Assembly: GCA_021300395.1 (NCBI GenBank)
Contig: JAJTEO010000043.1
Location: forward strand, 1 to 49,880
Length of the DNA: 49,880 nucleotides
Direction of reading: 5' to 3'
Source of the DNA: Fluviicola sp.
GTDB lineage: Bacteria > Bacteroidota > Bacteroidia > Flavobacteriales_D > Crocinitomicaceae
In this document: positions 19,118 to 28,518 of the stretch, piece by piece
Layout of the letters: each line of letters opens with the position of its first letter
Position numbering within the stretch: the first letter of the stretch is position 1
The notes under the pieces: model-generated
The model's database searches: none
Seen by the model: the letters and a program-made list of their open reading frames with translations, nothing else
What the model was told of the DNA's origin: nothing
Translations under genes and position numbers: made by a program

Positions 19118-20027
19118 TTATACGTTAAATCTAAAATGAAGAATATCTCCATCTTCAACAATGTATTCTTTCCCTTCAACTTTAAATTTACCAGCATCTT
19201 TTACTGCATTTTCAGAACCTAACGTTGTGAAGTCATTGTATTTCATTACTTCTGCACGAATAAATCCTTTTTCGATAAGATTCAAGTTCCGTAATATCAG
19301 CTTCTATTTTTGCTCCAATAACTAAAACTTCAGCGTTTTCATCTTTAACCGCTTCACGAACGATATCAACATATTTGTTTCCTGTTTTAACAGAAGATTC
19401 ATCAACATTACATAAATAAAGAACTGGTTTTGTAGTAATCAATTGAAATTTATCAACGATTTCCATTTCTTTTTCGTCCAATTTCAATGTACGAATTGAT
19501 TTCCCTTGCTCTAAAGCTTCTTTGATTCGTTGACACAATTCGTTTTCTTTCAAGATTTCTTTATCTCCTGATTTTAAAACTCTTGCTAACGTTGAAATTC
19601 TTTTTTCTACAGATTCTAAATCTTTTAATTGAAGTTCAATATCAATGATTTCTTTATCTCTAACAGGGTTTACAGATCCATCAACGTGAATAATATTTCC
19701 ATCATCAAAACATCTTAAAACATGAATAATTGCATCTGTTTCACGGATATTTGCTAAGAATTGATTCCCTAAACCTTCTCCTTTTGAAGCTCCTTTCACT
19801 AAACCTGCAATATCAACGATCTCCATTGTTGTAGGAACAACTCTTTCAGGATTTACGATGTTTTCTAAAACTTCTAAACGTGGATCTGGAACTGTGATAG
19901 TACCAACATTCGGTTCGATTGTACAAAAAGGAAAGTTTGCTGATTGCGCTTTCGCATTCGACAAACAATTGAACAAAGTTGATTTCCCAACATTAGGAAG
20001 TCCTACAATACCACATTTTAAAGCCAT
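19118..20027 (-). pseudogene. ychF: Ribosome-associated GTPase/ATPase YchF (OLA1 type) with an internal deletion and frameshift
   Basis: The N-terminal part (20027 to about 19275) gives 251 family residues: G1 GLPNVGKSTLFN (8-19), FCTIEPNVG, the G3 site DIAGLVKGASKGEGLGNQFL and NVDE. At ELESY it leaves the family. The last 51 residues of YchF ([14 protein letters not shown] to HFRFNV then stop at 19118) follow in another frame. About 62 residues in between are missing, covering the conserved LNLQTYFTAGVKEVRAW region. The frame from 20027 therefore ends at 19233 with a nonsense tail. YchF is close to universal, so a true null would be surprising. Confidence 0.9.
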
Positions 20028-20713: not shown

Positions 20714-21914
20714 ATGAAAATTCTATTTCTATTCCTTTCAATAAGTATTATTTCTTTTTCTCAAAATAACGATTCTACTTTCATTCGTAATGTATATAAC
20801 AAAGCATTAAGCGAAGGTAAATCTTATGAAGATTTAAGAGAATTATGTAAAAAAATTGGTGCAAGACTTTCTGGTTCTGCAGAAGCTGAAATGGCTGTTC
20901 AATGGAGTAAAACCAAAATGGAAAGTTACGGTTTTGACAAAGTTTATCTTCAAGAAATCAGCAAAAGCATCTGATGTAAAAGGAAAGATTGTATTCTTGA
21001 ATCAACCGATGAATGAAAAAGAAATCATCACTTTTAGTGCTTATGGCGGATGTTATGTGATCAGAGGGAATGGAGCGATTGAATCTGCAAAATTGGGAGC
21101 TGTTGGTGTTATTATCCGTTCGCTTGGTTTGCCGGTAGATGAACATCCACACACTGGTTCGATGCATTATGAAGATAGTATTCAAAAAATTCCTGCTGCT
21201 GCGTTAGCGACAAAAGATGCAGATATATTGTCAAACTATCTTAAGACTTCAAAAGTTCGATTTGCATACGAAATGGACTGCAAAAATTTTCCTGATGCCG
21301 TTTCATATAATGTCATAGCTGAATTAACAGGTTCAGAAAAACCAAATGAAATCATCACTTTTGGAGGTCATTTAGATTCTTGGGACACTGGAGAAGGTGC
21401 ACATGATGATGGAACGGGAGTCATTCATTGTTTAGAAGCTTTAAGAATATTAAAAACATTAAACTATAAACCTAAACATACATTAAGGGTTGTTTTCTTT
21501 ATGAACGAAGAAAATGGAAACAAAGGAGGTCAAACGTATGCTACTTGGTCAAAAAGTAGAGGTGACATTCAAATTGCAGCAGTTGAAAGTGATCGAGGAG
21601 GTTTTGCTCCAAGAGGATTTGAAATCGATGGAAATGAAAAATACTTAAACCTATTACAATCCTTTGCTCCTATTTTTAAACCTTATGATTTACATATTTT
21701 TGATAAAGGTTATGGCGGAGTAGATATTGGCCCATTAAAAAAATCATTTGAGGGAATTCCTTTATTTGGTTTTGTTCCGGATTCACAACGTTATTTTGAC
21801 TTTCACCATGCTCCTAGCGATGTTTTTGAAAGTGTCAACAAACGTGAATTAGAACTCGGATGTGCTGCAATTGGATCTTTAGTTTATTTATTGGATAAAA
21901 ATATTTCATTTTAA
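20714..21914 (+). pseudogene. Secreted M28-family zinc peptidase with an internal deletion and frameshift
   Basis: First part (20714 to about 20958): signal peptide MKILFLFLSISIISFS and about 80 family residues ending at KVYLQEI, after which the frame stops at 20974. Second part (about 20962-21914), in another frame: KASDVKGKIVFLNQPM to the end. It contains the catalytic and zinc residues GGHLDSWD, AHDDGTG, NEENGNKG, ESDRGG and DFHHAPSD. Relatives are about 455 residues long; the two parts sum to about 400, so about 50-55 residues are missing at the junction, in the protease-associated domain. The active-site half is intact but has no usable start or signal peptide. Confidence 0.88.
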
Positions 21915-21979
21915 TTCATTGAAAATTAGATTAATTAAGAATTAAATCAAAAAAAGTTTAATTTTTTCAATAAAAACTC

Positions 21980-22009
21980 TTGCAGATTAAAAATAAGTAT
22001 GTATCTTTG
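21980..22009 (+). promoter_or_regulatory. Bacteroidota-type promoter of tRNA-Asp
   Basis: TTG at 21980-21982 and TATCTTTG at 22002-22009, spacing 19, an exact match to the consensus. A leader of about 85 nt separates it from the tRNA, and includes an AT-rich palindromic stretch around ATTCGATTGTAATCGAA. Confidence 0.75.
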
Positions 22010-22099
22010 CAACGCTTTAAACGTAAGGCAAAACAATATTTAAGATTCATTTTTGAATATTCGATTGTAATCGAAAAGTCGTAAGACTTACAAAATATT

Positions 22100-22173
22100 G
22101 GTTTGGTAGTTCAGTTGGTTAGAATGCCGCCCTGTCACGGCGGAGGTCGCGGGTTCGAGTCCCGTCCAGACCG
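22100..22173 (+). tRNA. tRNA-Asp (anticodon GTC)
   Basis: 74 nt. Acceptor stem GGTTTGG pairs with CCAGACC (one G-T pair), with discriminator G73. The D arm contains AGTTCAGTTGGTTAGAAT; the anticodon arm CCGCC-CTGTCAC-GGCGG presents GTC; the T arm is GCGGGTTCGAGTCCCGT. CCA is not encoded. A complete, normal tRNA. Confidence 0.96.
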
Positions 22174-22210
22174 CTTTTAAAGTATAGCTTATATGGCTGT
22201 AAGCTTAGAA

Positions 22211-22250
22211 ACCCTAATAGAGTATCAATTTCTATTAGGGTTTTGTTTTT
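22211..22250 (+). terminator. Terminator of tRNA-Asp
   Basis: Perfect 11-bp stem ACCCTAATAGA/TCTATTAGGGT followed by TTTGTTTTTT, 38 bp past the tRNA. In the degenerate second copy of this region the hairpin is replaced by another palindrome (22631-22647). Confidence 0.85.
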
Positions 22251-22271
22251 TATATAACTTTCATTTGACAG

Positions 22272-22544
22272 ATGGAAAACTTTTACACCTATATCATCTT
22301 CAGTGAAGTCTTTGATAAATATTATAAAGGATTCTCTACAAATCCTAAACAAAGACTTATACAACACAATCTTGGCGAAAGTAAATTCACTTCTAATTTT
22401 GGACCTTGGAAATTAGTGCATGTTGAAATTTATAATTCAAAAAAAGACGCACTTATTAGAGAGAAAAAATTAAAAAAATACTCGAAAGCGCAAATTATTC
22501 AATTATCAAACTCACAATTAAATAAAATTAATGAACTAGGTTAG
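22272..22544 (+). CDS. Small GIY-YIG family nuclease downstream of tRNA-Asp
   Basis: 90 aa. Single GIY-YIG domain: YTYIIFS (5-11) and YYKG (17-20, the YIG motif with Lys for Ile), NPKQRLIQHN (24-33, with the catalytic Arg), GPWKLVHVEIY (about 44-54) and REKKLKKYSK (about 62-71, with the metal-binding Glu). Such small proteins resemble UvrC N-termini or free-standing nucleases; their targets are mostly unknown. It lies 98 bp past tRNA-Asp, beyond its terminator, and its stop is formed inside a degenerate second copy of the tRNA. The start is the ATG at 22272; a remnant of a second copy lies at 22681-22745. Confidence 0.8.
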   Translation: MENFYTYIIFSEVFDKYYKGFSTNPKQRLIQHNLGESKFTSNFGPWKLVHVEIYNSKKDALIREKKLKKYSKAQIIQLSNSQLNKINELG

Positions 22545-22604
22545 AATACCGACCCGTCATCCCCAAGAGACTTGGGGACGGGTTCGAGTCCCGTCCAGAT
22601 CGCT
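22539..22604 (+). pseudogene. Degenerate tRNA-Asp copy (3' two-thirds) with a palindrome in place of an arm
   Basis: Aligns with the intact tRNA-Asp from GGTTAGAAT to the end and 28 bp beyond (TTTTAAAGTATAGCTTGTATGGCTGT). The anticodon GTC is still readable, but the 3' half of the anticodon stem and the variable region are replaced by CCCCAAGAGACTTGGGG (22561-22577). The acceptor 5' strand and most of the D arm are absent, so it cannot be a functional tRNA. Confidence 0.85.
22561..22577. repeat. Palindrome CCCCAAGAGACTTGGGG within the degenerate tRNA-Asp
   Basis: A 7-bp stem (CCCCAAG/CTTGGGG) with a 3-nt loop. An almost identical palindrome lies 70 bp downstream. Confidence 0.8.
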
Positions 22605-22630
22605 TTTAAAGTATAGCTTGTATGGCTGTT

Positions 22631-22647
22631 CCCCAAGTAACTTGGGG
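22631..22647. repeat. Palindrome CCCCAAGTAACTTGGGG at the position of the tRNA-Asp terminator
   Basis: Same 7-bp stem as 22561-22577. In the duplicated unit it takes the place of the ACCCTAATAGA terminator hairpin of the first copy. Confidence 0.8.
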
Positions 22648-22680
22648 AATTGTTATTTATATAACTTTCAATTGACACAT

Positions 22681-22745
22681 TAAAAATTTTGACACCTATA
22701 TCAACTACAGTGAAGTCTTTGATAAATATTATAAAAGATTCTATA
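22681..22745 (+). pseudogene. Remnant of a second GIY-YIG gene
   Basis: About 60 bp nearly identical to bases 22277-22336 of the intact GIY-YIG gene (shared ACACCTATATCA and CAGTGAAGTCTTTGATAAAT). Its start codon has become TTA and an in-frame stop follows the first few codons. Completes a duplicated unit tRNA part - spacer - nuclease start. The remaining stretch to 22854 shows only a possible -7 element TACCTTTG at 22824-22831 for the next gene. Confidence 0.75.
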
Positions 22746-22854
22746 ATCTCAAGCAATTCACACCTATTTATCATTTGTTAATACATTTCTCAATTTCCTC
22801 AAAAACCATCCTTATTTAATCTCTACCTTTGTTTTCAATAATCATTTCGATTCA

Positions 22855-23142
22855 ATGAACGCAGAACAAGAACAAAAAATAAAGGATCTTATTTCAAAAT
22901 ACAATGACATTCTTTTAGTATCAATGCGTCTAGCAATTGCGGAAGACTTTGTGAACTTGATGCTCTTAAATCGAGATGATTCAGAATTTGTTTTAAAGGA
23001 TTTATTTCAAAACAAAGAGGAATTCAACAAGCTTATCATGAAAGAATTTTTGAAGAAAAATAGTTCTACGGTGATACAAGAATTAAAATTCATGGAGAAC
23101 CCACTTCCCGACTTTCAAAACTTATTAGCTAGAAAAAAATAA
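22855..23142 (+). CDS. Small cytosolic protein of unknown function
   Basis: 95 aa, charged, predicted largely helical (QEQKIKDLISKYNDILLVSMRLAIAEDFVNLMLLNR...). No signal, membrane helix or motif I recognise. It stands alone, convergent with selO (10 bp between stops). The ATG at 22855 follows a possible -7 element TACCTTTG (22824-22831). Confidence 0.55.
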   Translation: MNAEQEQKIKDLISKYNDILLVSMRLAIAEDFVNLMLLNRDDSEFVLKDLFQNKEEFNKLIMKEFLKKNSSTVIQELKFMENPLPDFQNLLARKK

Positions 23143-23151
23143 ACTTCTTTA

Positions 23152-24609
23152 TCAAGTTCCACAAAACGTCTGATAACCCAAATCAAAATCAGCCGGAACA
23201 ACTTGAAAATGATTAAATGTAGAATTGGATTGATAAGGATTTTTTAAAACCAATAAAAGTTCATTAAACAATTTAAAATCGTTCTTCTCAGCCCCATTCA
23301 ATAAAGCTTCTTCAACCAAATGATTTCGAGGAATAAAGGAAGGATTATTTCTATTCATTAAGCTCAAAACACTTTCAATTTCAAAATTTGATATTCTTTG
23401 ATTCCATTTAAGTTTCCAAGCTTGGAACTCTTCATTTAGATAAATTCCTTCTAATTCATCTAATGATTTTGAAATATTTAGAAATGTATTCGTATAATCC
23501 GATTTGTACTTTTGCATCCAACTCAAAAGCTCATCAACCAAACTCTTATCCTCAATTTGATGCTCAAGAATCCCTAATTTATCACACATCATTTTCAACC
23601 ATTTCGATTCGTAATCTTCAGGAAATTGATAAATAATCGTTTCACACAACTTCACTGCTTCTTCCTCTACTTCATGTATTATTGGCAATAATGCACTTGC
23701 AAAACGCGCCATGTTCCATTGTGTAATAGCTGGCTGATTCCCATAAGCATATCTACCATCACGATCGATGGAACTAAAAACAGTTTCAGGATGGTAAGCG
23801 TTCATAAAAGCACAAGGGCCATAATCAATTGTCTCACCCGCGATACTTACATTATCTGTATTCATTACCCCATGAATAAAGCCTACACGCATCCAATTTA
23901 CAATCAAATCAATTTGTTGATCTTGCACTTTTTTCAATAAAGCTAAAGCTAAATTATCTTCATTTAATAATTCAGGGTAATGTCGATCTATTACATATTC
24001 CGTATAATTCTGTAAATCTTCTTTTTTCAAATATTTAGCCGCATATTGAAACGTTCCTACTCGAATATGACTTTTTGCTATCCTCGTTAAAACACCACCT
24101 TCACTTACTTTCTCTCGATAAACTTCATCACCTGTCGCAATAACTGCTAAACTTCTTGTAGTTGGGATTTTCAAACCATGCATCGCTTCACTGATTAAAT
24201 ATTCTCGAAGCATTGCATAAAGAGTGGCACGTCCATCTCCGTTTCTAGAAAAATAAGTACGACCTGAACCTTTCAACTGAATATCAAAACGATCATTGTC
24301 TTTTGTTACATGTTCCCCAAGTAGAATTGCTCTTCCATCTCCTAAAATATTAAAATGACCGAACTGATGTCCAGCATACGCTTGAGCTAAAGGAGTTGTA
24401 TGTTCTGGAACTTGATTTCCTGATAATTCTAAAATAATTTGATCTTGAGTTAAATCATTTAAATCTAATTCATTCGCCAATTCTTGGTTATACAGAACTA
24501 AACGAGGTTCATTTACAGGAAATGGATTCAAAATTCGAAATAAATTTTCGTCTACCTTTAAATAGGTGTTATCCCAATTCCATTTATTTATCCTGTTATT
24601 TTCGCTCAT
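23152..24609 (-). CDS. SelO family protein (UPF0061, pseudokinase-fold AMPylase)
   Basis: 485 aa, similar to E. coli SelO (478). SelO proteins transfer AMP from ATP to Ser, Thr or Tyr of target proteins and are tied to redox stress. Visible: YAGHQFGHFNILGDGRAILLGE (about 78-99), LKGSGRTYFSRNGDGRATL (about 112-130), the EYLISEAMHGLKIPTTRSLAV helix, GVMNTDNVSIAGETIDYGPCAFM (about 248-270, with catalytic Asn and DYGP) and QPAITQWNMARFA. The C-terminal Cys is in FCGT, corresponding to the selenocysteine or Cys position of eukaryotic SelO. Single-gene unit. Confidence 0.9.
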   Translation of the reverse strand: MSENNRINKWNWDNTYLKVDENLFRILNPFPVNEPRLVLYNQELANELDLNDLTQDQIILELSGNQVPEHTTPLAQAYAGHQFGHFNILGDGRAILLGEHVTKDNDRFDIQLKGSGRTYFSRNGDGRATLYAMLREYLISEAMHGLKIPTTRSLAVIATGDEVYREKVSEGGVLTRIAKSHIRVGTFQYAAKYLKKEDLQNYTEYVIDRHYPELLNEDNLALALLKKVQDQQIDLIVNWMRVGFIHGVMNTDNVSIAGETIDYGPCAFMNAYHPETVFSSIDRDGRYAYGNQPAITQWNMARFASALLPIIHEVEEEAVKLCETIIYQFPEDYESKWLKMMCDKLGILEHQIEDKSLVDELLSWMQKYKSDYTNTFLNISKSLDELEGIYLNEEFQAWKLKWNQRISNFEIESVLSLMNRNNPSFIPRNHLVEEALLNGAEKNDFKLFNELLLVLKNPYQSNSTFNHFQVVPADFDLGYQTFCGT

Positions 24610-24749
24610 TAGTCATATATTTTGAAATAGTACTTCAATCAAAGATACAACTTCCATTGTTTTTAATTCGTCTTTTAAAATTCAATCGAATGATTTTAAT
24701 CATTTTTAACTGATCAAATTAAGATTAACTTTGACAAAAATATTTTAAC

Positions 24750-25208
24750 ATGAAAGCAAAAGCACCAAAGCATTCTGAAACAATTATGACTCAAATCGTT
24801 TTTCCAAATGATACAAACCCTATGGGAATTTTACAAGGAGGAAGATTGGTTCATTGGTTGGATACTGCTGCCGCTATTTGTTCTCAAAATCACGCTGAGC
24901 ATATTTGTGTTACAGCATCAATAGATAGCGTGAAATTTAAAGCACCTGCAAAAGTTGGTGACATTGTAACTATTAAAGCAAAAGTTACAAGAGCCTTTAC
25001 TTCATCAATGGAAATTTTTGTTCAAGCTTGGGCTAAAAAAGTGCTTACCCAAAAAGAATACTTAATTAATGAAGCTTATTTTACATTTGTAGCCATTGAT
25101 GATAACGCAAATCCAACTCAAGTTCCAGGACTAAAACCATCGACAGAAAAAGAAAAAATAGAGTATCAATTAGCTGAAGAAAGAAAATTGGCTCGATTGA
25201 AAGTATAA
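24750..25208 (+). CDS. Hotdog-fold acyl-CoA thioesterase
   Basis: 152 aa, one hotdog domain: PNDTNPMGILQGGRLVHWLDTAAAI (about 20-44) contains the family Asn/Asp and the helix start, followed by SVKFKAPAKVGDIV (about 62-75). It hydrolyses acyl-CoA to free acid and CoA; chain-length preference cannot be read from sequence. A -7-like TAACTTTG lies at 24726-24733, 16 bp before the ATG, without a clear -33. Single-gene unit, convergent with exbD. Confidence 0.85.
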   Translation: MKAKAPKHSETIMTQIVFPNDTNPMGILQGGRLVHWLDTAAAICSQNHAEHICVTASIDSVKFKAPAKVGDIVTIKAKVTRAFTSSMEIFVQAWAKKVLTQKEYLINEAYFTFVAIDDNANPTQVPGLKPSTEKEKIEYQLAEERKLARLKV

Positions 25209-25407
25209 TAGATCCAAAACTCTTATAGCTATAATCACAAATAAAAAAAGGAGCTATCCAAAAAGATTAATTATAGTTTTGATTTAAACCATCTAAGTAA
25301 TTAAAGGTCATATAAGCTAATTTTCATCTAACTAAATACAAATTGTTAATTAGTATTAATTGAAACTTATATACTCTAAAAACCCCTTAAATGGTTGACT
25401 AAAAAAC

Positions 25408-25436
25408 AAAGGGCGTCCTTTTGGGACACCCTCTTT
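25408..25436 (-). terminator. Terminator after exbD
   Basis: Hairpin AAAGGGCGTCC / GGACACCCTCTTT with one mismatch and a TTTTG loop, followed (minus strand) by a TTTGTTTTTT run. It may also stop the convergent thioesterase transcript. The rest of the 25209-25460 gap shows nothing else. Confidence 0.65.
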
Positions 25437-25460
25437 AATAGTATTTAATTATACTGGAAA

Positions 25461-25868
25461 TCACTTAGGACTCGTAGCAATCACAAATTTCAGATTGTTT
25501 CTAACTGCGATTTGCAATACATCTATTAAATCTTGAACTTGTAAATCAAACGGAATTCGAACAACAATTGATTGATCTTTACTTCCACTCAAATTAGATA
25601 GGATTTTAGTCTCTAACTCTTCAAAAGGAACTTCATCTTTATCTATGAAGTAATGTTTCATCTTAGCTTCATCTTGAGTAACTGAAATACTCAACATTTG
25701 CTTTCCTTGTTTATCGTTTTGCTCTGCTTTAGGCAAAGTCATTTTAATCACATTCGGATTTGCTAATGTCGAAATAATCAAAAAGAACAAAAGCAAGAAG
25801 AACATGATATCACTCAATGCTGAAGTAGCAACCTCAACATGAAATCGTTTATTTCGCTTTATCGCCAT
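25461..25868 (-). CDS. ExbD/TolR family biopolymer transport protein
   Basis: 135 aa. One N-terminal membrane helix SDIMFFLLLFFLIISTLA (about 18-35) carries the proton-relay Asp at its start; the rest is a periplasmic domain. With ExbB it forms the proton-driven stator that energises TonB-dependent outer-membrane transport. The start overlaps the end of the exbB gene by 20 bp. The TonB-like protein at 28.5 kb is its probable partner. Confidence 0.9.
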   Translation of the reverse strand: MAIKRNKRFHVEVATSALSDIMFFLLLFFLIISTLANPNVIKMTLPKAEQNDKQGKQMLSISVTQDEAKMKHYFIDKDEVPFEELETKILSNLSGSKDQSIVVRIPFDLQVQDLIDVLQIAVRNNLKFVIATSPK

Positions 25869-26601
25869 GATTTGGTCTTTGTAAAACTTGAATAAATTCT
25901 AATATGCTTTTTTGAACATTTAACGCGAAATTATCAATCATTCCGTTTAATAAATGGTATCCAGTAAATGCAATAATACCTACGATCAAACCTGAACCAG
26001 AACTAATCATTTTCTCGTATAAACCACCTGAAATGTTACCGATACTAATATCTTCAGAAATCGAAATGCTGTAGAAAATTTTAATTACCCCTGAAATTGT
26101 ACCAATAAATCCTAACGTTGGTGCAATACCTGCAATTAATCCTAAATGACCTAGCTTTCTCTCCATTTTACCAACTTCGATATTTACTACTTTCTCCATG
26201 TTAGATTCAATCTCAACCATTGGACGACCAATTGTTAAAACTCCTTCTTTAATTACATTCCCAAAAGCAGTTTGATCTCTATCAGCTGAAGAAACAGCAG
26301 CATCTATATTCCCAGTATTTAAACTAGATTTCACATCTGTAATTAAATGTGTATTGTATTTAGTTGTTCTTTTGATAAATAAATATCTTTCTACAATCAC
26401 AAAAATTGTATAAAACAATAAAATTGAAATTGGAATTAAGAAAAATCCACCTTTTATAAAGAAATCAAATGCAGAAATCTCTTCTGTTACAACCACTTTT
26501 TTAGCAGCATCAGCAACCGTTGCCGACGGACTTGAAATTTGTCCATTCGCTACTGAAGCGAATATAGAAGTTAAAACTATCAACCCCAGGTATTTTCTCA
26601 T
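25849..26601 (-). CDS. MotA/TolQ/ExbB family proton channel protein
   Basis: 250 aa. Residues 1-20 look like a cleavable signal peptide, as in many Bacteroidota ExbB proteins. Three membrane helices: about 50-70 (FFLIPISILLFYTIFVIVER), about 150-175 (GLIAGIAPTLGFIGTISGVIKIF, the conserved proton-path helix) and about 195-220 (SGSGLIVGIIAFTGYHLL). It forms the pentameric part of the ExbB/ExbD motor. Complete; first gene of the exbB-exbD pair. Confidence 0.9.
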   Translation of the reverse strand: MRKYLGLIVLTSIFASVANGQISSPSATVADAAKKVVVTEEISAFDFFIKGGFFLIPISILLFYTIFVIVERYLFIKRTTKYNTHLITDVKSSLNTGNIDAAVSSADRDQTAFGNVIKEGVLTIGRPMVEIESNMEKVVNIEVGKMERKLGHLGLIAGIAPTLGFIGTISGVIKIFYSISISEDISIGNISGGLYEKMISSGSGLIVGIIAFTGYHLLNGMIDNFALNVQKSILEFIQVLQRPNHGDKAK

Positions 26602-26735
26602 TTTAATAAAGTTTAAAAAATAACAGCGTGAAAATAAATATTATTTTCCATTTTTTCAGAAATACTTATTAAGACCGAATTGTTGTTAACATCAAACTGT
26701 AATGAGTTTTTAAGATTCGCTCACAACTAACCAAA

Positions 26736-26981
26736 TCAATTCCCTTTCATTAAACTCTCAATTACTTTTCTTGATTTCCACTTCTTTATTTGCAATTCTC
26801 GTTGAGTAGCTTCCGATTTAGATTGATAATTTTCTTGATAAACGACTTGCCAATCACCAACCCCACCAGTAAAACCTTTATGATTGGAATTATGTTTTAA
26901 CAATCGCTCTTGTAGATTAGATGTTGAGCCAATGTAATATTTATTCTTTTTAATTGAAAACAGGATATAGGTGTGATACAT
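26736..26981 (-). CDS. Small GIY-YIG family nuclease downstream of tRNA-Val
   Basis: 81 aa, GIY-YIG domain of the UPF0213 type: YHTYILFS (2-9), KYYIGSTSNLQERLLKHN (14-31, with Tyr, Gly and catalytic Arg), GDWQVVYQENYQSKSEA (about 42-58) and RELQIKKWKSRK (about 61-72, with the metal-binding Glu). All core residues are present. It begins 44 bp past a degenerate tRNA-Val copy, on the same strand, so the arrangement mirrors the tRNA-Asp locus at 22.1-22.8 kb. Target unknown. Confidence 0.85.
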   Translation of the reverse strand: MYHTYILFSIKKNKYYIGSTSNLQERLLKHNSNHKGFTGGVGDWQVVYQENYQSKSEATQRELQIKKWKSRKVIESLMKGN

Positions 26982-27044
26982 TTTTAATAATTTAATTCAA
27001 AAAAGGTTAGATTTTCATTAAGTGTGGGAAATACAGGATTCGAA

Positions 27045-27060
27045 ATCCGATGAATCGGAT
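27045..27060. repeat. Palindrome ATCCGATGAATCGGAT inside the degenerate tRNA-Val T arm
   Basis: A 7-bp stem ATCCGAT/ATCGGAT with a 2-base centre; inserted relative to the intact tRNA-Val. Confidence 0.8.
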
Positions 27061-27075
27061 CAAGCTCTGTGACCC

Positions 27076-27093
27076 TCCCGATTGAAATCGGGA
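27076..27093. repeat. Palindrome TCCCGATTGAAATCGGGA in the anticodon-arm position of the degenerate tRNA-Val
   Basis: An 8-bp stem TCCCGATT/AATCGGGA with a 2-base centre; replaces the anticodon stem-loop of the intact tRNA-Val. Confidence 0.8.
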
Positions 27094-27161
27094 TGCCCTG
27101 AACCAGCTGAGCTAATTTCCTTTTTTTTAACATTCATTTTAAACTAAAGTTTAAGCAAAAA

Positions 27162-27189
27162 AAAAGACTTACATAAATGTAAGTCTTTT
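27162..27189 (-). terminator. Terminator of tRNA-Val
   Basis: AAAAGACTTACA pairs with TGTAAGTCTTTT over 12 bp, followed on the minus strand by a run of T. It lies 9 bp past the tRNA and before the degenerate copy. Confidence 0.85.
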
Positions 27190-27198
27190 AATTAAGTG

Positions 27199-27273
27199 TG
27201 GGAAATACAGGATTCGAACCTGTGACCCCCTGCTTGTAAGGCAGGTGCTCTGAACCAACTGAGCTAATTTCCC
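27199..27273 (-). tRNA. tRNA-Val (anticodon TAC)
   Basis: 75 nt. Acceptor GGGAAAT/ATTTCCC with discriminator A; D arm TAGCTCAGTTGGTTCAGAGC; anticodon arm CCTGC-CTTACAA-GCAGG presents TAC; T arm ACAGGTTCGAATCCTGT. CCA is not encoded. Complete. Confidence 0.96.
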
Positions 27274-27318
27274 TTTTTTTCAACTTTAAAAACCTCGTTT
27301 GGTTCGTTGTTGTGAGTG

Positions 27319-27348
27319 CAAAGATAGGCACATTTTTTATTTCTGCAA
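27319..27348 (-). promoter_or_regulatory. Bacteroidota-type promoter of tRNA-Val
   Basis: On the minus strand TTG at 27348-27346, then TATCTTTG at 27326-27319, spacing 19; identical in spacing and -7 sequence to the tRNA-Asp promoter. It lies about 45 bp upstream of the tRNA. Confidence 0.75.
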
Positions 27349-27366
27349 GTGTTTTTCAAAAAAAAA

Positions 27367-28518
27367 TCAAAAAAAATCGCTCAATAAAAAGAAGCTTCCA
27401 AAAACTAAAATTGTATCTTCTTTTTTTACAGATAATTGCGCATTTTTTAGAGCTTCTTTTGGATTAAGAAAAAAAGTTGATTTTAATTTAAATTCTTTTG
27501 ATTCTTCCATCAATTGAATTAGTTTCGCACTTCTTTCATTACTAAATTCTGTAAAAAAGTAATTCGCTTCTTTAGGAAACAATGAAAATATACTTTTAAT
27601 ATCTTTATCTGAACTTGTTCCATAAATGATATGAAGCTCTCCTTTATTTATTTTTAGAATTGAATCTAAAGTCGCTTTAATACCGTCATAATTATGAGAA
27701 ACATCCATAATCGTTAAAGGCTCTTCATTCATCACTTGTAAACGTCCTCTGAATCCTGTATTTGCAGAAAGTTTTTTCAATCCATTCGCTATTACCTGCT
27801 CTGATATCTCAAAACCAATTGATTTTAGATATTCTAGAGCTAAATAAACAGACTTGTAGTTTTTTATCTGATAATCACCTAACAAGGGAAAAGTAGCTGG
27901 TATTTGCACAGAAGCATCTTCAGCTAAAATAAGTGTTGAATTAGACTCAATCGCTTTCTTTTTAAAAACAGCTATTGTTTCAGGTAAAGTCTCTCCAACA
28001 ATAACGGGAACAGAATTTTTAATGATTCCTGCCTTCTCAAAAGCAATCTCTCCTAACGTTTCTCCAAGAAAATTTGTATGCTCTAAACCTATATTCGTAA
28101 TTATTGAAAGTATCGGTGTAATGATATTTGTAGCATCAAGCCTCCCTCCTAAACCTGTTTCAATAACACAAATGGACGTTTCTTTTTTAAGAGAGTGAAC
28201 CAGTGTCATTATCCAAGTGATTTCAAAAAAGGATGGTTCAAAATCAAGATTTAAACCTTTTACTTCTTCACAGAAAGAAATTACTTCCTCTTCAGAAATC
28301 ATTTCTCCATTTACTCGAATTCTTTCTCTAAAATCTTCGATATGAGGCGAAGTAAAAAGTCCAACTTTCTCTCCAGATTCAGTTAACACGGATGCCAACA
28401 TGCTTGACGTCGACCCTTTACCATTTGTCCCCGCAACATGAATAAACTTCAGTTGATCTTGTGGATTCCCGAAAAATTCAGCTAAACGAATACAATTAGC
28501 CAAACTAGGCTTACACAA
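27367..28518 (-). CDS. folC: Folylpolyglutamate synthase / dihydrofolate synthase, N-terminus lost
   Basis: 383 aa from a TTG at 28518; relatives have about 405-410. Present: P-loop HVAGTNGKGSTSSML (about 27-41), FTSPHIEDFRERI (about 55-67), the metal/glutamate region ETGLGGRLDATN and DVSHNYDG (about 273-280) near the substrate site. The family N-terminus (about 25 residues with a QxxGxxAYK-like motif) is absent: the frame begins CKPSLANCIRLAEFFGNP, where CKP matches the usual YKP. No ATG precedes it and an in-frame stop lies 18 bp upstream of the TTG. The TonB-like gene just before it is also cut short, so one deletion may have removed the end of one gene and the start of the other. The enzyme adds glutamate to folates. 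Confidence 0.85.
   Translation of the reverse strand: MCKPSLANCIRLAEFFGNPQDQLKFIHVAGTNGKGSTSSMLASVLTESGEKVGLFTSPHIEDFRERIRVNGEMISEEEVISFCEEVKGLNLDFEPSFFEITWIMTLVHSLKKETSICVIETGLGGRLDATNIITPILSIITNIGLEHTNFLGETLGEIAFEKAGIIKNSVPVIVGETLPETIAVFKKKAIESNSTLILAEDASVQIPATFPLLGDYQIKNYKSVYLALEYLKSIGFEISEQVIANGLKKLSANTGFRGRLQVMNEEPLTIMDVSHNYDGIKATLDSILKINKGELHIIYGTSSDKDIKSIFSLFPKEANYFFTEFSNERSAKLIQLMEESKEFKLKSTFFLNPKEALKNAQLSVKKEDTILVFGSFFLLSDFF

Follow-up and report, generated by a model that had tools for sequence, protein, structure and literature searches.

A short GIY-YIG nuclease gene with hairpin-bearing partial tRNA copies as a probable homing-like cassette anchored in structural RNA genes of Bacteroidota

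In a 49,880-nucleotide (nt) stretch of DNA from Fluviicola sp. (GenBank assembly GCA_021300395.1, contig JAJTEO010000043.1, positions 1 to 49,880; hereafter the window), an intact transfer RNA gene, tRNA-Asp, is followed on the same strand by a small GIY-YIG nuclease gene, a broken copy of the same tRNA and the remnant of a second nuclease copy. We call such an arrangement a cassette, comprising one GIY-YIG gene and at least one partial copy of an RNA gene, with a DNA hairpin standing in for a defined stretch of the copy. Loci are labelled with L-numbers and genomes with G-numbers; L091 is the occupied tRNA-Asp locus and L092 the cassette-free locus of G010. The tRNA-Asp cassette of the window contains the following features (aa, amino acids; ORF, open reading frame):

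22100–22174, plus strand: intact tRNA-Asp(GTC), the anchor gene (ARAGORN; Rfam; identical in the cassette-free L092)
22210–22251, plus strand: terminator-like stem and T run of tRNA-Asp (sequence; same stem in L092 and L093)
22272–22544, plus strand: GIY-YIG nuclease gene, 90 aa, tRNA-Asp clade (ORF list; PF01541)
22539–22603, plus strand: broken tRNA-Asp copy, D-loop to 3' end (sequence and self-comparison)
22560–22578, no strand: hairpin TCCCCAAGAGACTTGGGGA, a 19-nt palindrome replacing tRNA positions 39–50 of the broken copy
22604–22628, plus strand: copied tRNA-Asp downstream spacer (self-comparison)
22629–22649, no strand: second hairpin TTCCCCAAGTAACTTGGGGAA, in the place of the terminator stem, sister of TCCCCAAGAGACTTGGGGA
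22664–22745, plus strand: second nuclease copy, truncated, start codon lost (sequence and self-comparison)

A first-pass annotation of this DNA had already described the tRNA, its terminator, the 90-aa gene, the partial tRNA copy and the nuclease remnant, all of which were recovered by ARAGORN, Rfam, Pfam, self-comparison and inspection of the sequence. Its single repeat period of about 422 base pairs (bp) holds for the first part of the unit (22539–22559 versus 22117–22137, 86% identity), whereas the offset is 429 bp for 22579–22629 versus 22150–22200 (96% identity) and 407 bp for 22642–22745 versus 22235–22338 (87% identity), because TCCCCAAGAGACTTGGGGA replaces 12 nt of the tRNA copy and the second palindrome replaces the terminator stem. 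The stop codon of the nuclease ORF falls within the first bases of the broken tRNA copy, and the ATG of the first nuclease copy is ATT in the remnant. The palindromes are the most informative part of this layout.

A second cassette lies 5 kilobases (kb) away at tRNA-Val, where the intact tRNA is followed first by a broken tRNA bearing two palindromes and then by the nuclease, so that the earlier statement that the same design recurs there stands for the ingredients and fails for their order:

27198–27273, minus strand: intact tRNA-Val(TAC), the anchor of the second cassette (ARAGORN; Rfam)
27025–27121, minus strand: broken tRNA-Val copy (sequence comparison)
27076–27093, no strand: hairpin TCCCGATTTCAATCGGGA, in the place of the anticodon arm
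27046–27059, no strand: second hairpin TCCGAT..ATCGGA, in the T-arm of the broken tRNA-Val copy
26736–26981, minus strand: GIY-YIG nuclease gene, 81 aa, tRNA-Val clade (ORF list; PF01541)

The source genome, an 83%-complete assembly, holds four GIY-YIG matches, namely the Asp and Val cassettes, a tRNA-Met cassette and a 604-aa frame which, by its length alone, we take to be uvrC-like. On another contig, the third short gene stands in the order tRNA-Met, terminator, nuclease, broken tRNA-Met with palindrome and nuclease start. Since a related layout surrounds this gene too, and no further short GIY-YIG gene was found in the genome, the layout is not due to chance, in line with the earlier view that its recurrence makes chance less likely.

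We examined this association across the phylum, beginning with a family search in 40 genomes, from which 93 rows were used among the matches listed (short frames and two longer ones, L006 and L011, with other long frames of about 258 aa and more excluded). ARAGORN placed the nearest tRNA or transfer-messenger RNA (tmRNA) on the strand of the nuclease gene in 44 cases upstream of it and in five downstream, put it on the opposite strand in one and found none in 43. A tree of 87 proteins contained a supported clade of 32 without any same-strand case, and 47 of the 55 others were associated with an RNA gene; the division into a tRNA-type and a control (sister) lineage was drawn on this tree after the adjacency had been observed. 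Profiles of both lineages were then applied to loci L001–L211, counting the nearest tRNA or tmRNA within 700 bp. Here 154 out of 190 distinct tRNA-type hits had it on the same strand (126 upstream, 28 downstream) and none on the opposite strand; the remaining 36 had none within this distance (23 plain and 13 at a contig edge), and seven of the 23 are array members located 716–1295 bp from their own tRNA. In the same genomes, the control lineage (n = 36) yielded no same-strand case, one on the opposite strand and 35 with none. Array members are not independent, hence we also counted per locus, with 119 of 138 tRNA-type loci having a same-strand tRNA or tmRNA within 700 bp. The phylum-wide sets consist of genomes outside the first sample, but these were fetched using the tRNA-type profiles, and the counted ARAGORN tRNAs include hairpin-bearing copies (L010, L032 and L054, three undetermined calls among the 154, and the tRNA-Phe downstream of L125). 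Overall, these counts amount to a very strong enrichment next to tRNA genes and bear out the tRNA-associated cassette that the first-pass annotation had proposed, and the sister-lineage control led us to reject chance adjacency.

The association extends beyond tRNA genes: among the hits counted as none, L120 and L121, from two genomes, are tRNA-type nucleases directly 5' of RNase P RNA on the same strand (Rfam), and L057 stands behind tmRNA. In 19 later order-level loci, a same-strand tRNA lay within 300 bp in 13. Furthermore, a scan of GTDB genomes with the Val profile returned 174 relatives, of which the best 80 are titled Bacteroidota nearly throughout and carry a TCC..GGA hairpin nearby in 73 cases; the nearest called tRNA of these 80 is Val in 51, Arg in three, another or undetermined in 15 and absent in 11. 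Many of those 15 are taken to be hairpin-bearing copies misread by ARAGORN. At L219, L224, L257 and similar loci, Ile, Gln or Stop calls appear where the hairpin-bearing copy is expected, and such copies are likely a source of false tRNA annotations. Contigs labelled Kuenenia, Actinomyces, Bifidobacterium, Limnohabitans and Gracilibacteria (L212, L213, L242, L247, L263) carry Bacteroidota-type cassettes and are probably mislabelled or contaminated assemblies.

The strand bias and the control lineage also bear on the view that an ordinary GIY-YIG repair gene merely hitch-hikes through tRNA-targeting integrases or replication slippage. Integration at tRNA genes is common, islands too can be recognised by partial tRNA copies, and islands integrated at tRNA genes by tyrosine recombinases likewise have an intact tRNA at one side and a tRNA 3' fragment at the far end. 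Nevertheless, we hold this passive origin to be highly improbable, considering that no nearest RNA gene among the 190 hits lies on the opposite strand, that the sister lineage shows no association and that the hairpin placement described below does not vary within an isotype across much of the phylum sample. Moreover, unlike islands, the cassettes carry a hairpin at the break and form tandem arrays, and the unit length of about 315–430 bp in the loci examined base by base leaves no room for an integrase gene or cargo; none of these units contained an integrase gene.

The nucleases themselves, mostly 75–105 aa in length, match PF01541 with 58.7 bits (Asp) and 63.7 bits at a curated cut-off of 22.6. 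Residues Y6, Y17, G19, R27, H31 and E63 are invariant in 12 diverse members, and we take these Tyr, Tyr, Gly, Arg, His and Glu to have the active-site roles of GIY-YIG enzymes. The ratio of nonsynonymous to synonymous substitution rates (dN/dS) of the Asp nuclease is 0.34 versus G003 and 0.21 versus G006 (range 0.14–0.34 in three Asp pairs), and that of the Val nuclease 0.17 versus G009 and 0.12 versus G011 (range 0.11–0.17 in three Val pairs); judged from these six pairs (0.11–0.34), the ORFs are under purifying selection. UPF0213 proteins and SLX1 are the closest solved structures at the sequence level. No PHROGs family was matched at E 0.01 by any of three cassette proteins, and searches with one cassette protein found relatives in 15 out of 50,697 phage and three out of 72,556 plasmid records, all below 60% identity. 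Viral contigs scanned with the Val profile yielded no relative; we reject a phage or plasmid cargo gene on these grounds. The nuclease ORFs of L055 and L022 seem to continue into the broken tRNA, so that their products end in tails such as RLAQLVRVPQLRD, which are a possible source of odd protein annotations.

Palindromes of the TCC..GGA type are concentrated at the tRNA-type genes, with 3.76 per kb within 100 bp compared to 0.084 per kb at 0.8–2.5 kb, and reach 0.04–0.44 per kb around the control lineage (11 in total, all bins). Of the 219 palindromes near these genes, 157 have a flank that matches the neighbouring tRNA, whereas four out of 438 shuffled flanks do. Where both flanks match, the replaced tRNA stretch is 3, 8, 10–12 or 17 nt in 68 of 71 cases; it corresponds to the entire 17-nt anticodon arm in Val, Ala, Arg and others, to 10 nt directly 3' of the anticodon in Met and to 12 or 8 nt in Asp, and in other clades the hairpin replaces the T-loop or part of the D-arm. 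When altered copies were located via their tRNA flanks alone, flush palindromes were present in 18 out of 19 Met, 10 out of 11 Asp 38|51, 16 out of 20 Asp/Gly and 72 out of 118 Val-type copies, the last total being inflated by native neighbouring tRNAs. In a stricter, unconditioned test on the 40 loci with a clear 22-nt tRNA 3' end copy downstream, an arm of at least 6 bp occurs in 30, compared with nine for the intact tRNA and three for shuffled sequence. Within the window there are seven TCC..GGA palindromes versus 1.16 in shuffles, four in the two cassettes and three AT-rich ones elsewhere. We rejected ordinary terminators, as terminator-like palindromes had been excluded beforehand and most hairpins lie inside tRNA copies, and likewise a generally dispersed repeat, given that palindromes at 0.8–1.5 kb from the genes (0.27 per kb) match the shuffled rate (0.28 per kb). 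The z-scores for single-stranded DNA folding of the broken copies in the window (Asp −2.36, Val −2.79) overlap with those of the intact genes (tRNA-Val −3.76, tRNA-Asp −0.81), so that folding energy alone fails to distinguish the broken copies. REP/REPIN palindromes (repetitive extragenic palindromes) with their RAYT genes also couple a short palindrome to one small enzyme gene; here a GIY-YIG enzyme takes the place of the Y1 transposase, and RNA genes are where the palindromes belong.

The nature of the replaced stretch further allows two readings at the RNA level to be weighed. GIY-YIG genes are typical cargo of group I introns, and introns carrying them sit in tRNA anticodon loops, so that the anticodon arm is a break point there as in the cassettes; introns, however, splice, whereas in the cassettes it is duplication that rescues the tRNA. 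No intron RNA was detected by Rfam, applied at gathering scores, in window positions 21900–27500 or in 34 loci (21 tRNA-type), and the NCBIfam group I intron endonuclease model gave 23.3 and 15 bits for two of the three proteins at a cut-off of 56, and we rejected a group I intron accordingly. Alternatively, the nuclease could cleave the tRNA itself as a toxin or defence enzyme, with the hairpin-bearing copy serving as decoy or antidote RNA. The exact replacement of the anticodon arm in Val, Ala and Arg would suit such a system, and ARAGORN can still call broken copies tRNAs; we nonetheless consider it very unlikely, since the T-loop or part of the D-arm is replaced in other clades, the mirror class described below retains only the 5' half of the tRNA, and tmRNA and RNase P RNA are used as well. 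PADLOC matches to defence proteins are weak and partial in two of the three proteins (PDC-S14, best E 6.6e-4 over 33 residues), and the third gave no match.

Each nuclease lineage keeps largely to one kind of tRNA. On a tree of 135 tRNA-type loci built from only 84 columns, we counted 34 switches of isotype (116 rows, 14 states; mean of shuffles 82.0, minimum 74) and four of hairpin class, TCCC or TCCG (74 rows; mean of shuffles 21.3, minimum 14), where neither these shuffles nor the permutations below take account of relatedness. A search of 296 phylum genomes with the Met profile placed 13 of the 14 best genomes besides the source at tRNA-Met, G091 being without clear assignment, and the next five genomes all at tRNA-Asn. 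The Asn profile gave no usable isotype test, as it found, among its seven best newly searched genomes (L319–L325), two at tRNA-Asn and one with tRNA-Leu 700 bp away; the other four had no tRNA, three of them near a contig end. In addition, hairpins pair with nucleases independently of the RNA gene, as hairpin similarity drops with nuclease distance also where the loci compared belong to different RNA genes (Spearman −0.256; lowest value in 500 permutations −0.142, with loci without RNA gene treated as having a gene of their own). In the tmRNA clade, GTGGA-like palindromes such as GTGGATACTATCCAC occur in six of nine loci, including L062 and L078 where no RNA gene was found, and in two out of 126 loci elsewhere on the tree; L044, without a tRNA, and L046, at tRNA-His, have TGCTGAC..GTCAGCA in common. 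The isotype lock and this pairing, like the hairpins and the mirror-image 5' architecture, go beyond the first-pass annotation.

This pairing brings to mind Ssn of Neisseria, which is reportedly a stand-alone GIY-YIG enzyme and site-specific single-strand nuclease with a cognate TCCC..GGGA-like palindrome; a Neisseria GIY-YIG enzyme is likewise said to act on dRS3-type repeats. A module of this kind would use the hairpin as its substrate, cut while single-stranded during replication or uptake, and would either move via the released tRNA-homologous ends or mainly edit incoming DNA, the tRNA being a convenient anchor. As a pattern, a palindromic repeat near the nuclease gene is common to both systems, yet the cassette palindromes lie mostly inside broken tRNA copies by the gene and are rare elsewhere in the loci examined, unlike the hundreds of dispersed sites reported for the Neisseria system, and their position in the tRNA is fixed per clade, which a substrate-only role would not need. 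We therefore regard this alternative as rather unlikely, although it would explain why the hairpin type tracks the nuclease clade across different RNA genes, why the tmRNA-clade palindrome is kept at L062 and L078 and the palindrome of L046 at the tRNA-free L044, and why array units span from hairpin to hairpin. Moreover, the TCCC..GGGA core is similar to the Neisseria dRS3 motif ATTCCC(N8)GGGAAT (PMC3898611).

The phylum-wide searches turned up hits that were regularly spaced in tandem. At L133 (tRNA-Asp) we found five units of 315 bp each and at L134 (tRNA-Met) five units of about 365 bp each, the unit consisting of tRNA 3' end, terminator, nuclease, tRNA piece and hairpin; three equal-length units of L134 are 98.9–100% identical. 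Three-unit arrays occur at Ser (L135) and Arg (L137). The earlier suggestion that the cassette copies itself or provokes duplication at tRNA genes agrees with these near-identical five-unit arrays, while the act of copying is something we infer. In a mirror form, the nuclease is located directly 5' of the intact tRNA (Ser L135; Arg L106, L137, L140) and the unit begins with the tRNA 5' half, with a palindrome at the D-loop and the break in or near the anticodon arm; the nuclease start codon follows the tRNA 5' half after 0 or 3 bases in L135 and L137, and the last ORF reaches or enters the acceptor stem of the intact tRNA. L141, L250 and L274 are tandem arrays of hairpin-bearing tRNA pieces without a nuclease, with units of 68–98 bp and a break at the anticodon arm.

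Comparing tRNA-Asp loci of relatives with and without the cassette, as had been suggested earlier, we analysed 12 genomes of the genus including the source genome. The gene 5' of tRNA-Asp was found in 11, followed by tRNA-Asp within the fetched stretch in six and not in five (L095, L096, L098, L099, L100). In G010, with a 100% identical upstream protein and nearly identical flanks, tRNA-Asp and its terminator are present cleanly without a cassette. G003 contains one unit, in which the tRNA 3' half and terminator are perfectly and directly repeated on both sides over at least 85 bp; in G006 (L094) a second unit begins with a nuclease copy that has its start codon, followed by the contig end; G009 has a frameshifted, decayed cassette and G011 none; and the second unit of the window allele is truncated. 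The intact tRNA-Asp is the same in the occupied L091 and the empty L092, with changes confined to the broken copy. At the Val locus, G010 has a 100% identical TolQ-like gene (L293) and other sequence where tRNA-Val and its cassette would be, and because tRNA-Val is missing there this locus cannot serve as an empty-site comparison.

Taken together, cassettes are anchored on one strand of an RNA gene, keep an adjacent intact gene in most loci, carry a hairpin at a fixed point, form arrays and have an empty allele within the genus. We consider it probable that they represent a minimal selfish element of the homing-like kind, residing on the chromosome with structural RNA genes as its anchor, in which cleavage, homing, transfer and nuclease-driven amplification would produce this pattern. 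The nuclease would cut or nick the RNA gene at a clade-specific point, corresponding to the hairpin position in the broken copies, and the break would be repaired by recombination via the tRNA-derived homology flanking the nuclease gene. With a cassette-bearing template, nuclease and hairpin-bearing copy would enter an empty allele, and at an occupied locus tandem units would be gained or lost. An intact RNA gene persists beside the cassette in most loci, which suggests rescue by partial duplication, and because it remains there the host could tolerate the cassette without splicing. The coupling of hairpin and nuclease suggests that the hairpin may be a cognate site of the nuclease, either bound or processed by it as single-stranded DNA or rendering the broken copy uncleavable. 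Considering that many direct units, the mirror form and the nuclease-free arrays are all broken in the anticodon region, cutting of the RNA gene there is the simplest reading, the main exception being the Asp/Gly cassettes with their T-loop break.

The nearest described and worked-out analogue is SegB, a free-standing GIY-YIG homing endonuclease of T-even phages. It too is a small gene beside tRNA genes and intron-free (PMC13096335), and in T6 its nuclease activity was shown to drive tandem amplification of a tRNA and nuclease segment (PMC13096335). The parts of that account consulted mention no hairpin-bearing broken tRNA copy and state that no isotype is preferred over others (PMC13096335), whereas the cassettes have both hairpins and an isotype lock. 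SegB is phage-borne and the cassettes are chromosomal, with the few and distant phage relatives given above. Like SegB, the cassette gene stands beside its presumed target and is absent from an empty allele (G010); the protection of the donor by an altered target has no counterpart, the intact tRNA-Asp being unchanged. Among the open-licence PMC articles listed in our searches, no title or abstract opening described bacterial chromosomes in which GIY-YIG genes are accompanied by broken tRNA copies that bear hairpins.

Several observations weigh against the homing-like reading. As the intact tRNA of the occupied locus is unrecoded, the donor allele lacks the classical safeguard against cutting itself, and a precise loss between direct repeats would explain the empty G010 allele equally well. 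On our reading of the tree, the isotype clades run roughly parallel to host families, which makes no case for recent horizontal transfer, and 42 of the 130 forks of this tree are open. The hairpin test within tRNA-Asn is weak (two changes, shuffled minimum two, n = 15), and the Val profile is less strict than the Met profile, its nine best genomes being six at Val, two at Arg and one at an edge. A clear 22-nt copy of the tRNA 3' end lies downstream in only 40 of the 73 loci with an upstream tRNA, and 10 of these 40 lack a hairpin arm of at least 6 bp. Finally, the tRNA-type genes of L044, L062, L078 and L084 have no RNA gene in view, and a strict TCC..GGA hairpin occurs in only 11 of the 19 order-level loci and in none of three at tRNA-Phe.

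In the surroundings of the tRNA-Asp cassette, the M28-type peptidase gene 5' of tRNA-Asp (window 20714–21914) is split into two overlapping frames, by a frameshift or an assembly error, while near full-length matches in relatives are single frames of 452–469 aa, two with an internal stop. A YchF-like GTPase ORF (window 19233–20027) has only 264 aa, which is short for this family, and a frameshift is possible.

More tentatively, and with less confidence than we place in the homing-like cassette as such, we suggest a Bacteroidota-wide, previously undescribed class of mobile elements, namely single-gene 0.3–0.43-kb "cut-and-rescue" cassettes that occupy genes for tRNA, tmRNA and RNase P RNA. Each nuclease lineage would have its cognate hairpin and would break one RNA gene at a fixed point, and the element would spread because the indispensable gene that it breaks is left behind in rebuilt form, with L141, L250 and L274 as possible non-autonomous derivatives. 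Because one genus contains alleles with no unit, one unit and several units, the way in which the cassettes spread can be tested directly. If the cut-and-rescue reading is true, these elements would be a natural counterpart of cleave-and-rescue gene drives, and their clade-specific hairpins and break points would constitute a natural library of sequence- or structure-specific mini-nucleases. The cassettes would also account for unusual pseudo-tRNA calls in Bacteroidota genomes and illustrate how genes for tRNAs become duplicated and broken. A large bacterial phylum would then host one of the smallest mobile elements known, at home in some of the best conserved genes that cells have and needing neither splicing nor an integrase.

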